DNA from: Pedobacter sp. Leaf170
Lineage (GTDB): Bacteria; Bacteroidota; Bacteroidia; Sphingobacteriales; Sphingobacteriaceae
Direction: 5' to 3'
Assembly: GCF_920984665.1 (NCBI RefSeq)
Contig: NZ_CAKLBP010000001.1
Coordinates: 710,858 to 774,857, forward strand
Length of the DNA: 64,000 nt
Shown: in pieces, positions 61,065-64,000 of the stretch
Numbering within the stretch: position 1 is the stretch's first letter
Layout: each line of letters starts with the position of its first letter
Translations under genes and position numbers: made by a program
Notes under the pieces: model-generated
Databases searched by the model: none
What the model was told of the DNA's origin: nothing
Seen by the model: the letters and a program-made list of their open reading frames with translations, nothing else

Positions 61065-61085
61065 TAGTGTATTTTTTACACACTT
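61065..61085. promoter_or_regulatory. Operator-like site upstream of the amino-sugar kinase
   Basis: TAGTGTA-TTTTT-TACACACT matches, apart from the five central bases, the site at 63075-63095. It is an imperfect inverted repeat (AGTGT-N9-ACACT) and lies about 100 bp before the kinase start. I infer that the Nudix-like regulator binds here. Confidence 0.65.
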
Positions 61086-61186
61086 AAATTTAAACAACAA
61101 TAAATTGTTAAAAAATTATTAAAAAAAAAGATACAAAATATAAGACTTTTTATACTTTTATCGTGCTAAAACCAAAAATAAATAAA

Positions 61187-62047
61187 ATGATAGTAATTGC
61201 AGACGGTGGATCAACCAAAACAAATTGGTGCTTGATTAACGAGGCCGGCAGAAAAATTTACTTTAATACCGAAGGTTACAATCCATATTTTTCAAAAGGA
61301 GAATATATTGTAAAATCATTAAGAGAATCTCTTCCGGACCACTTAGAAAGAGAAAAATTAACCGCGGTATATTACTATGGAGCTGGTTGCTCTACACCGG
61401 CTAACAAAAAAATTGTTGCCGATGCTATGCAACAAGTTTTTACAAATGCAGAAATATTTGTTGGCCACGATTTACTTGCGTCTTGCAGGGCTTTACTTGG
61501 AAACGAGCCGGGTTTTGCTGCAATTTTAGGCACAGGAACAAATTCTTGCCTTTACGATGGAAATGACATCACCTTAAACATCGATTCTTTAGGTTATTTC
61601 TTAGGCGATGAAGGAAGCGGTTCTTACATTGGTAAAAGAATTTTAAGCGATTACATGAAAGGCTACATGCCAAAAGGTTTGAGAGAAGCTTTTTATGATA
61701 ATTATGCTTTAACAAACGAAGATATTTTTGATAATATTTACAACAAGCCATTGCCAAACCGTTTTTGTGCAAGTTTTAGTAAATTTTTATACGATTTTAA
61801 AGATAGTTATGAAGACTATACTTATAAGACCATCGACTATGCTTTCACGGCATTTTTCGAGGCTTTAGTAATTCATTACCCTAACTACAAAGACCATAAA
61901 TTAAACTGTGTAGGCTCTGTAGGGTATAGTTTCCGAGATATTTTGAGCATTGTTGCCGACCGCTACGAAATGGGCGTTGGTAAAATTATCCGTTCTCCGA
62001 TAGATGATTTAGTTCACTATCATTTAGAACTTGCTCCAAAGGCTTAG
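61187..62047 (+). CDS. N-acetylglucosamine kinase-like protein (BadF/BadG family)
   Basis: A 286-residue ASKHA-fold kinase. It begins MIVIADGGSTKTNWCLI (phosphate-1 DGGSTKT) and has GAILGTGTNSCLYDG-like blocks (LGTGTNSCLYDG, GDEGSGSYIGKR). Bacteroidota proteins of this group are usually called N-acetylglucosamine kinase or BadF/BadG/BcrA/BcrD ATPase. The sugar is an inference. A GTG start at 61163 is possible, but the ATG fits the family start. The operator-like site at 61065 links it to pfkA and the Nudix regulator. Confidence 0.85.
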   Translation: MIVIADGGSTKTNWCLINEAGRKIYFNTEGYNPYFSKGEYIVKSLRESLPDHLEREKLTAVYYYGAGCSTPANKKIVADAMQQVFTNAEIFVGHDLLASCRALLGNEPGFAAILGTGTNSCLYDGNDITLNIDSLGYFLGDEGSGSYIGKRILSDYMKGYMPKGLREAFYDNYALTNEDIFDNIYNKPLPNRFCASFSKFLYDFKDSYEDYTYKTIDYAFTAFFEALVIHYPNYKDHKLNCVGSVGYSFRDILSIVADRYEMGVGKIIRSPIDDLVHYHLELAPKA

Positions 62048-62068
62048 TTTAGAGTTTAAAGGGGAAAG

Positions 62069-62179
62069 TACAAAGTTTAGAGTACAAAGCTTAGAGTACA
62101 AAGTTTAGAGTATAAAGTTTAGAGTACAAAGTATAGAGTACAAAGTATAGAGTTTAAGATTTAGAGTACAAAGTTTAAG
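62069..62179. repeat. Eight tandem 14-bp repeats (TACAAAGTTTAGAG)
   Basis: Eight units of 13-14 bp with consensus TACAAAGTTTAGAG run without gap from 62069 to 62179; units 2, 4, 5, 6 and 7 differ by one to four bases. It lies between the kinase stop and a terminator. It appears non-coding and is the kind of minisatellite expected to vary in copy number. Confidence 0.9.
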
Positions 62180-62191
62180 TTCTACCAAAAT

Positions 62192-62231
62192 AAAAAAGGT
62201 TCAGTTTGAAATTTCAAACTGAACCTTTTTT
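62192..62231. terminator. Perfect 40-bp palindromic terminator
   Basis: The sequence AAAAAAGGTTCAGTTTGAAA is followed directly by its exact reverse complement, so there is no unpaired loop apart from forced bending. It serves the kinase gene on the plus strand and the Nudix regulator on the minus strand. Confidence 0.95.
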
Positions 62232-62288
62232 GCTAATAATCTATTAGATCAACACTTTCGACTTCCAACTTTTTACTTTCTACTTTTC

Positions 62289-62312
62289 ACTTTCCACTTT
62301 CCACTTTCCACT
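62289..62312. repeat. ACTTTCC short tandem repeat at the regulator stop codon
   Basis: Three ACTTTCC units plus a partial unit end exactly at the stop codon of the Nudix regulator (minus strand GGAAAGT). Similar AAAGT-type runs are scattered in the region from 62258. Slippage here could change the length of the gap but not the protein. Confidence 0.8.
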
Positions 62313-63001
62313 TAAAAAGATATTTCCTTACCGAAAAGTTTAGCGTATTTACGTTTATCAAATCGGTATAATGTAGCAGCTCTGTAAGAAACGCCTTTTT
62401 GTTTTTCATCAAGTTCTTTCAATACACCGAAACTTACAATCTTCTTTCTAAAATTTCTCTTATCCAGTTTTTTGCCAAGCACTAGCTCATAAACATGCTG
62501 TAATTGAGTGAGTGTGAATTTCTCTGGAAGCAATTCAAAAGCAATTGGCTGGTGCTTAATTCTTCGTTTTATTTTCTCTAAGCCCTTATCGTATATCTTC
62601 TGATGGTCGAAAGCCAATTTTGGTAAGGCCGTAATTGGCAACCAATTAGCCTGTTTTGCGTAATTACTTACCGGGCGTAAATCTTTATCACCTCCTAAAC
62701 GTATCAGCGCATAATAAGCTAAGGTGATAACCCTTCCCTGCGGGTGTCTACCAGGATCGCCGAAAGCATAGTATTGTTCCATGTATATGCCACGCAAACC
62801 TGTTAATTCGTATAAAATTCGAGAAGCAGATTGATCTAAACTTTCATCAGGACCAACAATATTTCCTGGCAGCGCCCACCAATCTTTAAAAGGTTCTTCA
62901 TTCCTTTCGATGAGTAAGATTTTTAATTCCTTTCCATCGAATCCAAACAGCACACAGTCGATGGAAAAAACGGAATCTAAATGAGGTAAAATTTGTTCCA
63001 A
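62312..63001 (-). CDS. Nudix-domain transcriptional regulator (NrtR/AraR-like)
   Basis: A 229-residue protein with an N-terminal Nudix domain and a C-terminal winged-helix region (about residues 140-229, FTLTQLQHVYELVLGKKLDKRNFRKK). In the Nudix box (about 46-68) the catalytic REUxEE reads R-I-L-Y-E-L, so hydrolysis is probably lost. GDPGRHPQGRVITLAYYAL is the typical ligand-binding stretch of NrtR-like regulators. Nudix regulators of this kind control NAD or sugar genes (AraR in Bacteroides). It is divergent from pfkA across a TAGTGTA-type operator, so autoregulation and control of pfkA are likely. Confidence 0.9.
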   Translation of the reverse strand: MEQILPHLDSVFSIDCVLFGFDGKELKILLIERNEEPFKDWWALPGNIVGPDESLDQSASRILYELTGLRGIYMEQYYAFGDPGRHPQGRVITLAYYALIRLGGDKDLRPVSNYAKQANWLPITALPKLAFDHQKIYDKGLEKIKRRIKHQPIAFELLPEKFTLTQLQHVYELVLGKKLDKRNFRKKIVSFGVLKELDEKQKGVSYRAATLYRFDKRKYAKLFGKEISF

Positions 63002-63074
63002 GGTAAAATTTAGTTAATTTAAGCGTTAAAGGTATGACTTTCAATATTAAGTAAAAAAAATAAAATAAATTACT

Positions 63075-63095
63075 TAGTGTAGAAAATACACACTA
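63075..63095. promoter_or_regulatory. Operator-like palindrome between the Nudix regulator and pfkA
   Basis: TAGTGTA-GAAAA-TACACACTA has perfect outer arms TAGTGT / ACACTA spaced by 9. It matches the site at 61065-61085 ahead of the sugar kinase and touches the -7 element of pfkA, so a bound repressor would block RNA polymerase. Confidence 0.75.
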
Positions 63096-63101
63096 TATTC
63101 G
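63094..63101 (+). promoter_or_regulatory. -7 element of pfkA
   Basis: TATATTCG matches TAnnTTTG with one mismatch and ends ten bases before the pfkA ATG. Its first two bases overlap the operator. Confidence 0.5.
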
Positions 63102-63111
63102 TAACACGAAG

Positions 63112-64000
63112 ATGAAACCAAATATTAAAAACATAGCCGTACTTACATCTGGAGGTGATGCTCCAGGTATGAATGCTGCAATTAGAGCGGTTGTACGTAC
63201 AGGAATTTACCATGGCATTAACATGTTTGGTGTTATGCAAGGCTATCAAGGTTTAATAAATAACAACATTAAACCAATGGATGCACGCTCTGTAAGTAAT
63301 ATTTTACATTTAGGCGGAACCATTCTTAAAACAGCAAGATGTTTAGAGTTTAAGACAGACGAAGGTCAGCAGATTGCATTCGATAATTTAAAAGCTAACG
63401 ATATCGACGCTTTAGTTGTTATTGGTGGCGATGGAACCTTTACCGGCGCTAAACGTTTCGGCGAAAAATTTGGCGTTAAAGTAATTGGCATTCCGGGCAC
63501 AATTGATAATGATTTAAGTGGCTCTGATTTTACTTTAGGTTACGATACCGCAATAAACACAGTTGTAGAAGCAATTGATAAAATCAGAGATACTGCCGAT
63601 GCCCACGATAGATTGTTCTTTATCGAAGTAATGGGTAGGGATTCTGGTTGTATTGCTTTAAGAAGCTCTATAGCAAGTGGTGCCGAAGCCGTTTTATTAC
63701 CGGAAGTAGAAACCAGCGTTGAAGACCTTATTCAGAAATTAGCATTGGGAGCCGCAACTAAAAAATCATCGAGTATTGTTATTGTAGCCGAAGGACACAA
63801 ACAAGGTGGCGCTTATGATATTGCAAAGCGTGTTAAAGAAACATTTGACCACTATGATACCAAGGTTACGATTTTAGGTCACCTTCAAAGAGGTGGAAGC
63901 CCAAATAGTTTCGACCGTATTTTGGGTAGTAGATTGGGCTACGCAGCGGTTAATGCACTAATTGCCGGAGAAAGCGCAAAAATGGTTGGCTTAAATGGTA
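63112..64000 (+). CDS. pfkA: 6-phosphofructokinase, C-terminus beyond the window
   Basis: The open frame from ATG 63112 continues past the window end (296 codons visible of about 320-330). It shows the PfkA motifs AVLTSGGDAPGMNAAIRAVVR, GGDGTFTGAKRF, the catalytic block PGTIDNDL with D in TID-x-D, VMGRDSGCIALRS and LGHLQRGGSP. It commits fructose-6-phosphate to glycolysis with ATP. The upstream palindrome and divergent Nudix regulator suggest transcriptional control not usual for this gene. Confidence 0.96.
   Translation, partial: MKPNIKNIAVLTSGGDAPGMNAAIRAVVRTGIYHGINMFGVMQGYQGLINNNIKPMDARSVSNILHLGGTILKTARCLEFKTDEGQQIAFDNLKANDIDALVVIGGDGTFTGAKRFGEKFGVKVIGIPGTIDNDLSGSDFTLGYDTAINTVVEAIDKIRDTADAHDRLFFIEVMGRDSGCIALRSSIASGAEAVLLPEVETSVEDLIQKLALGAATKKSSSIVIVAEGHKQGGAYDIAKRVKETFDHYDTKVTILGHLQRGGSPNSFDRILGSRLGYAAVNALIAGESAKMVGLNG

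Follow-up and report, generated by a model that had tools for sequence, protein, structure and literature searches.

How far does the control of pfkA reach when the gene faces a regulator-like protein of the Nudix fold? In a stretch of 64,000 nucleotides from Pedobacter sp. Leaf170, hereafter the window, a Nudix/winged-helix protein is encoded divergently from pfkA, and two nearly identical palindromes lie upstream of pfkA and of a nearby BadF-type amino-sugar kinase gene. The initial annotation proposed that these palindromes form a shared operator through which a Nudix-family regulator ties the two genes into a local regulon, with pfkA under specific control. Reasoning from sequence supports the shared operator, the Nudix-family regulator and the specific control of pfkA. 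The reach of the system appears to be much wider: as modeled below, the Nudix/winged-helix protein of the family Sphingobacteriaceae probably binds DNA and controls a central-carbon regulon that spans the genome.

The two window sites, TAGTGTATTTTTTACACACTT and TAGTGTAGAAAATACACACTA, are identical apart from the central five bases and the final one, exactly as first described, and the exact pattern occurs at only these two places in the window. When up to three mismatches are allowed, the window contains three matches compared with a shuffle mean of 1.24, and 17 of 100 shuffles reach three; taken alone, the window therefore offers weak evidence for operators. A search of the whole genome, as suggested in the initial annotation, showed that close matches exceed chance: the core GTGTA-N5-TACAC occurs exactly 15 times, versus once for the backward-read control and about 1.7 times expected under a trinucleotide model built from 232 kb of the same genome. 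The 19-bp symmetric pattern with up to three mismatches shows no excess genome-wide (214 matches versus 264 for the backward control), and information therefore resides only in close matches. The two window sites look like real operators. The asymmetric right half TACACACT, originally part of the pattern, was dropped in favor of the symmetric form TAGTGTA-N5-TACACTA, which fits the wider set of sites better, because the other sites are symmetric and the right edge of the pfkA operator is shared with a promoter element, its outer right-hand bases running into the predicted -7 box TATATTCG.

All 30 sites in the genome with no more than two mismatches to TAGTGTA-N5-TACACTA were inspected. Five of them precede genes of glycolysis or gluconeogenesis as named by NCBIfam, namely pfkA (followed by a kinase gene and gapA), pyk, pckA, fbaA and eno; the chance of finding five pathway sites among 30 is about 2e-7, assuming that 12 of 2800 transcription units belong to the pathway. 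Other sites precede amt, gltB, lpxD, several SusC-like genes, the window kinase gene and a putative small RNA, and an NAD gene was recognized beside none of the 30. At least nine of the 30 lie inside predicted genes and probably occur there by chance; only two of the 15 exact-core sites (L372 and L375) are intragenic. Exact-core operators stand before SusC-like genes at L384, L385 and L055, one of these sites lying beside genes for a LacI-type regulator and a beta-phosphoglucomutase-like protein, and the regulon may reach into glycan uptake.

A search at E <= 1e-30 detected the regulator in 195 of 201 family genomes. Upstream regions were compared in 23 regulator-bearing genomes with about 200 permuted palindromes as the null; G244, a second pckA of G001 and six genomes lacking the regulator were kept out of these counts. 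A site with at most two mismatches precedes eno in 18 of the 23 genomes (null mean 0.12, maximum 2) and pyk in 16 (null mean 0.06, maximum 2), rising to 20 and 22, respectively, at up to three mismatches. For pckA, nine of the 16 genomes bearing the gene have a site with at most two mismatches (null mean 0.03, maximum 1) and 13 have one with at most three. The check in relatives proposed in the initial annotation thus revealed conserved close matches, with eno, pyk and pckA far above the permuted controls. Of 80 named loci, most of them from Pedobacter, Daejeonella and Hufsiella, 78 have pfkA divergent from the regulator, and in every one of these the pfkA operator core is exact. Among 20 fetched loci of other genomes, the core in the pfkA gap has no mismatch in 16, one in two and two in L115, and L100 has neither pfkA nor a site in the gap.

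Judged by its domains, the regulator is clearly a member of the NrtR family. It matches NrtR_WHD (PF21906, 9.1e-29), AraR_C (PF19368, 8e-16) and PF00293 (9.5e-13), with PF00293 and PF21906 above their cut-offs, and an N-terminal Nudix-like domain is followed by a C-terminal NrtR winged helix, the order that marks the family. Its closest relative in PDB is AraR (5bs6, 1.3e-53). The degenerate hydrolase box noticed at the outset was confirmed: RILYELTGL replaces the Nudix box motif REUXEEXGU (PMC4666351), with the loss of two catalytic Glu residues. The loss extends across 102 regulator sequences (those of the window, of 20 genomes of other genera or species, of G016 and of the 80 named loci), in all of which the first Glu, that of REU, is Ile or Val, and in 96 of which the second Glu of EE is Leu. 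In the AraR-DNA crystal, residues 178-184 (DKRNFRK) together with the wing read GTGT, and the DNA holds GTGT-N7-ACAC (PMC4666351). The same DKRNFRK helix occupies residues 180-186 of the regulator and is kept in all 102 sequences, and the operators described here, GTGT-A-N5-T-ACAC, have spacing identical to that of the crystal operator. The AraR DNA contacts Lys179, Arg180, Asn181, Lys184 and Arg205 are likewise kept in 102 of 102, Lys204 being replaced by Tyr, Phe or His.

The positions of the operators relative to predicted promoters bear on the sign of control. The Bacteroidetes -7 consensus is TAnnTTTG, and distances were taken from the operator center to the first T of its best match. The box at pfkA is found at +10 in 93 of 95 loci (the script broke ties towards +10) and is TATATTCG itself in 85 of the 95. 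At pyk it is found at +8 in seven of 26 rows (Pedobacter, G002 and G018) and at -29 to -33 in 13; at eno it is found at -30 to -32 in 16 of 21 rows, at -42 in two and at -25 or -27 in two, with none in one row. The operator therefore overlaps or directly follows the promoter at pfkA, eno and most pyk genes, which corresponds to the position of a repressor. The pckA operator precedes the -7 box by 56-58 bp in 15 of 17 rows (46 bp in G016, none in G244). Its distance to the box has a standard deviation (SD) of 2.8 versus 11.7 for the distance to the ATG (16 rows); when each genus is represented by a single row (10 rows), the SD is 3.6 versus a permuted mean of 17.4, and 0 of 20000 permutations gave a value as small. 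The fixed upstream distance thus corresponds to the position of an activator. Taken together, these positions suggest a dual role, repression of glycolysis and activation of gluconeogenesis, in a logic resembling that of Cra. A search for a -7 box of the regulator gene itself, bearing on autoregulation, yielded offsets that were scattered in 64 of the 80 loci.

The sites, their conservation, their positions relative to the predicted -7 boxes and the conserved DNA-reading residues can be combined in the following model. A regulator dimer would bind TAGTGTA-N5-TACACTA, which includes GTGT-N7-ACAC, in the manner of AraR. Where the operator overlaps the -7 box (pfkA-kinase-gapA and pyk) or lies just downstream of it (eno and many pyk promoters outside Pedobacter), transcription would be blocked, while binding upstream of the pckA box would activate. 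A sugar or sugar phosphate signaling glycolytic flux and held in the dead Nudix pocket would free the regulator from DNA; abundant sugar would switch glycolysis on and pckA off, and scarcity would do the reverse. In its fullest form, put forward tentatively and with slightly less than even confidence, the model makes the dead Nudix protein a dual master regulator of glycolysis and gluconeogenesis in Sphingobacteriaceae that would repress pfkA-kinase-gapA, eno and pyk and activate pckA by operator position alone, sense a sugar phosphate and drive a new gapA-linked small RNA in Pedobacter, as an independent equivalent of Cra arisen in a repressor family; the small RNA would extend control past transcription. 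It is unlikely, but well worth considering, that the protein is instead a plain repressor everywhere, including pckA, where control would be exerted by looping or the site would be neutral. The NrtR members named in PMC4666351 are repressors, and the word 'activator' does not occur in that text, whereas the near-constant spacing between operator and box at pckA, against a variable distance to the ATG, speaks for activation, as does the spacing in G016, which is off by about one helical turn.

The binding pocket points to a sugar-like effector rather than ADP-ribose, because the residues that form hydrogen bonds with arabinose in AraR (Arg34, Arg86 and His131) are retained by all 102 family sequences and the ADP-ribose contacts of SoNrtR are changed, Arg98 to Gln88 and Lys76 to Leu66 (96 of 102 each). 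Phe36 of the AraR pocket corresponds to Glu35 in the regulator family (91 of 102), and Gly48 of AraR to Asn or Tyr. The classical members of the NrtR family sense ADP-ribose or NAD (PMC4666351), and the regulator matches both NrtR_WHD and NCBIfam NtrR; a sensor of this kind would link glycolysis to the NAD state. This is improbable in view of the residues listed above, and the match to the NtrR equivalog (NF050029) reaches 149.2 bits versus a cut-off of 400, which does not place the protein among the classical NAD regulators.

The identity of the protein that reads the sites can be approached through paralogues and through genomes lacking the regulator. Three NrtR winged-helix proteins are encoded in the Leaf170 genome, and the two paralogues (L133 and L416) carry DNRNFIR and NRGNFYR where the regulator has DKRNFRK. 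One paralogue lies beside SDR, fumarylacetoacetase-type and amidohydrolase genes and the other beside threonine biosynthesis genes; no matching operator was found near them, apart from one core site lying some 6 kb away from the threonine-linked paralogue. Genomes with a single NrtR protein nevertheless possess the sites: G061 at pfkA, eno, pyk and pckA, G021 at eno, pyk and pckA, G004 at pfkA, eno and pckA, and G016 at pfkA, eno, pyk, fba and pckA (with up to three mismatches). Six genomes gave no NrtR winged-helix match, and as a negative control they were partially successful. Two agree with the regulator as the binder: in G022, which is 99% complete, close sites are absent from eno, pyk and fba and the pfkA pattern has four mismatches, and in G024 (85% complete) close sites are absent from eno, pyk, pckA and pfkA. 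The other four disagree, and the expected co-occurrence of sites and regulator thus holds for the most part, with G033, G080, G069 and G079 as exceptions.

These exceptions are among several observations that weigh against the proposed regulator or against the extent of its regulon. G033 keeps sites at pfkA and pyk and G080 a site at pfkA, and near-sites are found at pyk and, more weakly, at pckA in G069 (87% complete) and G079 (60%); assembly gaps (missing contigs) or a distant homologue may account for them, although the completeness of G033 is put at 99%. In other parts of the phylum the same motif serves NrtR relatives at NAD and xylose genes, and paralogues could share the sites. The regulator of G005 adjoins gapA with no site in that gap, and no close eno site was found in G005, G007 and G020. 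A site with at most two mismatches precedes fba in four of the 23 genomes (null mean 0.10, maximum 6) and one with at most three in six, which is no excess; fbaA was rejected as a family-wide target and retained as a Pedobacter target. The gene amt was also rejected at the family level, a close site being present in two of 28 searched genomes (G170 and G004) in addition to Leaf170. Second copies of amt and more distant members of its family are counted among the 30 amt loci fetched from the searched genomes. Six of the 26 pyk rows have the box at neither +8 nor -29 to -33, and all distances refer to -7 boxes that are consensus matches with unmapped starts, in rows that are not independent within a genus.

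The possibility that the sites belong to another factor, an NrtR paralogue or an unrelated protein, with the neighboring gene as a bystander, draws on the motif before NAD and xylose genes beside other NrtR proteins and on the sites that remain in G033 and G080. It is nonetheless very improbable, given the sites in single-NrtR genomes, the divergent helices of the Leaf170 paralogues and the residues, kept in all 102 sequences, with which AraR contacts GTGT-N7-ACAC. A local regulon with the window kinase gene and pfkA as sole targets, suggested initially by two near-identical sites in one neighborhood, is scarcely credible and was discarded, because operators also precede fbaA and, conserved from one genus to the next, eno, pyk and pckA.

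The examined relatives from outside the family include one, L124 (family f7, about 50-55% identity), in which the divergent regulator-pfkA-gapA-kinase cluster recurs, complete with an operator; the L124 regulator has Gln at the first of the three arabinose-binding positions. Other relatives lie beside NAD genes (L117, L119 and L135), xylose genes (L121 and L129), arabinose-type operons (L123 and L125) or SusC genes, and several of them have the same motif. Operators resembling TAGTGTA-N5-TACACTA were observed at all five NAD- and xylose-linked loci, and the motif is therefore common to NrtR subfamilies.

The pfkA operon continues beyond the window with a second BadF-type kinase gene and then gapA, and this kinase is part of the operon in 17 of the 20 fetched loci (L099 and L115 lack the kinase and L100 lacks pfkA). 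Its closest function-named PDB relatives are an 'ATPase' (8oqw) and a 'putative novel MurNAc kinase' (8ow9), both at about 1e-42, followed by N-acetylglucosamine (GlcNAc) kinases at 4e-31. The closest function-named PDB relative of the window kinase is the N-acetylglucosamine kinase 8oqk (2.5e-59), 1zbs (PG1100) being found at 1.1e-64; its score for NCBIfam NagK, 27.5 bits, is far under the cut-off of 370. The operator of the window kinase gene has at most one core mismatch in 40 of the 79 named loci having that gene and is the less conserved of the two window sites. The link between amino-sugar phosphorylation and glycolysis drawn in the initial annotation is supported by the structural relatives of the kinases and stands, the kinase of the pfkA operon being the half with the better conservation. 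A tandem-like run of GAGTACAAAGTTTA units was noticed by eye at 62040-62170, 3' of the window kinase gene.

A perfect palindromic operator is located 364 bp 3' of gapA (L046:9172-9190, outside the window) and precedes a putative small RNA. At +23 from the operator center lies TATATTTG, followed by a terminator-like hairpin. Of the 80 named loci, 58 have the 20-mer CAGGTTTATATTTGGTTAGA without change, 57 of them within 1.2 kb after gapA (19 within 200 bp) and the remaining one, L286, at 2.3 kb. In Leaf170 and in 38 named loci out of the 80, an operator with no more than one mismatch was found less than 900 bp from gapA. In an alignment of 25 small-RNA sequences, 10 of the 18 pairs predicted have changed on both sides, and every one of these belongs to the terminator stem, which surrounds a conserved GGAT loop. 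Over 1201 bases, Rfam yielded no match up to E 1, and thus no known RNA was identified for this transcript; a literature search of partial coverage likewise found no small RNA following gapA. Our proposal is that the RNA would act by base-pairing, the invariant UUAUAUUUGGUUAGA serving as seed.

Table 1. Features of the regulator-pfkA neighborhood; coordinates are those of the window unless preceded by a locus name
Feature	Position	Strand	Remarks
Operator 1	61065-61085 (19-bp core 61065-61083)		Between divergent threonine-aldolase-like gene and amino-sugar kinase gene
Candidate -7 box of kinase gene, TACTTTTA	61153-61160	+	Consensus match only, 5/6; 79 bp from operator center
BadF-type amino-sugar kinase (N-acetylglucosamine kinase-like)	61187-62047	+	PF01869
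NrtR-family Nudix/winged-helix regulator	62312-63001	-	TTG start as listed; predicted operator binder
Operator 2	63075-63095 (19-bp core 63075-63093)		Divergent gap between regulator and pfkA
Predicted -7 box of pfkA, TATATTCG	63094-63101	+	Abuts operator core; 10 bp from operator center
pfkA	63112-64000	+	TIGR02482, 3.7e-124; cut by window end
Second BadF-type kinase	L046:6962-7804		Between pfkA and gapA, just past the window
Putative small RNA	L046:9172-9382 (G000:C1)		About 2.3 kb past window end; own perfect operator and terminator hairpin

The transcriptional balancing of glycolysis and gluconeogenesis in Bacteroidota is poorly known, and in the literature examined the NrtR-type proteins of this phylum are tied to arabinose and xylose rather than to the core pathway. 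If the model is correct, the fold of a Nudix enzyme has been turned into a flux sensor of central metabolism, for which the operator is defined and the list of targets is short and open to testing in Pedobacter strains that are culturable and harmless. An NrtR-family activator would also be new, to our knowledge, and the operator would provide a ready handle for expression tools in the Pedobacter group. No NrtR or Nudix regulator of glycolysis was recognized in the literature searched, the coverage of which was partial. Membership in the family is clear; the regulon and its likely dual action appear to be new.

In Cra, a LacI-family protein with fructose-1-phosphate as its effector, the sign of control is set by the position of the operator. 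The regulator resembles Cra in logic only, with operators at both glycolytic (pfkA, eno and pyk) and gluconeogenic (pckA) genes. The LacI-family fold of Cra and its operator are unrelated to those of the Nudix/winged-helix protein, whose Pfam matches do not include a LacI domain, setting it apart from the Cra/FruR protein family. Cra/FruR of enteric bacteria places glycolysis and gluconeogenesis under a single regulator (PMC11157272). HexR and CceR of Proteobacteria are likewise global central-carbon regulators found by comparative genomics (PMC5507952), but they belong to the RpiR and LacI families and to other phyla. The NrtR proteins of NAD metabolism share PF00293 and PF21906 with the regulator, and their NAD-linked relatives mentioned above share its motif, whereas the regulator has lost the ADP-ribose contacts and no NAD gene was recognized beside its inspected sites. 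XylR of Bacteroides (BT0791) is another NrtR-family sugar regulator of Bacteroidetes (PMC3878776), and the xylose-linked relatives carry the same motif; unlike the regulator described here, XylR exerts pathway-specific control of xylose genes. AraR of Bacteroides thetaiotaomicron (BT0354; PDB 5bs6 and related entries) also belongs to the NrtR family (PMC4666351) and shares with the regulator the fold, the domain order, the DNA-reading helix, the GTGT-N7-ACAC geometry, the Arg/Arg/His pocket and the dead Nudix box. AraR controls arabinose genes, whereas the regulator is encoded beside pfkA, with operators at genes of glycolysis and gluconeogenesis, and differs from AraR in the pocket (Phe36 to Glu35 and Gly48 to Asn or Tyr), in the wing (Lys204 to Tyr or Phe) and in a pckA operator whose position suggests activation.

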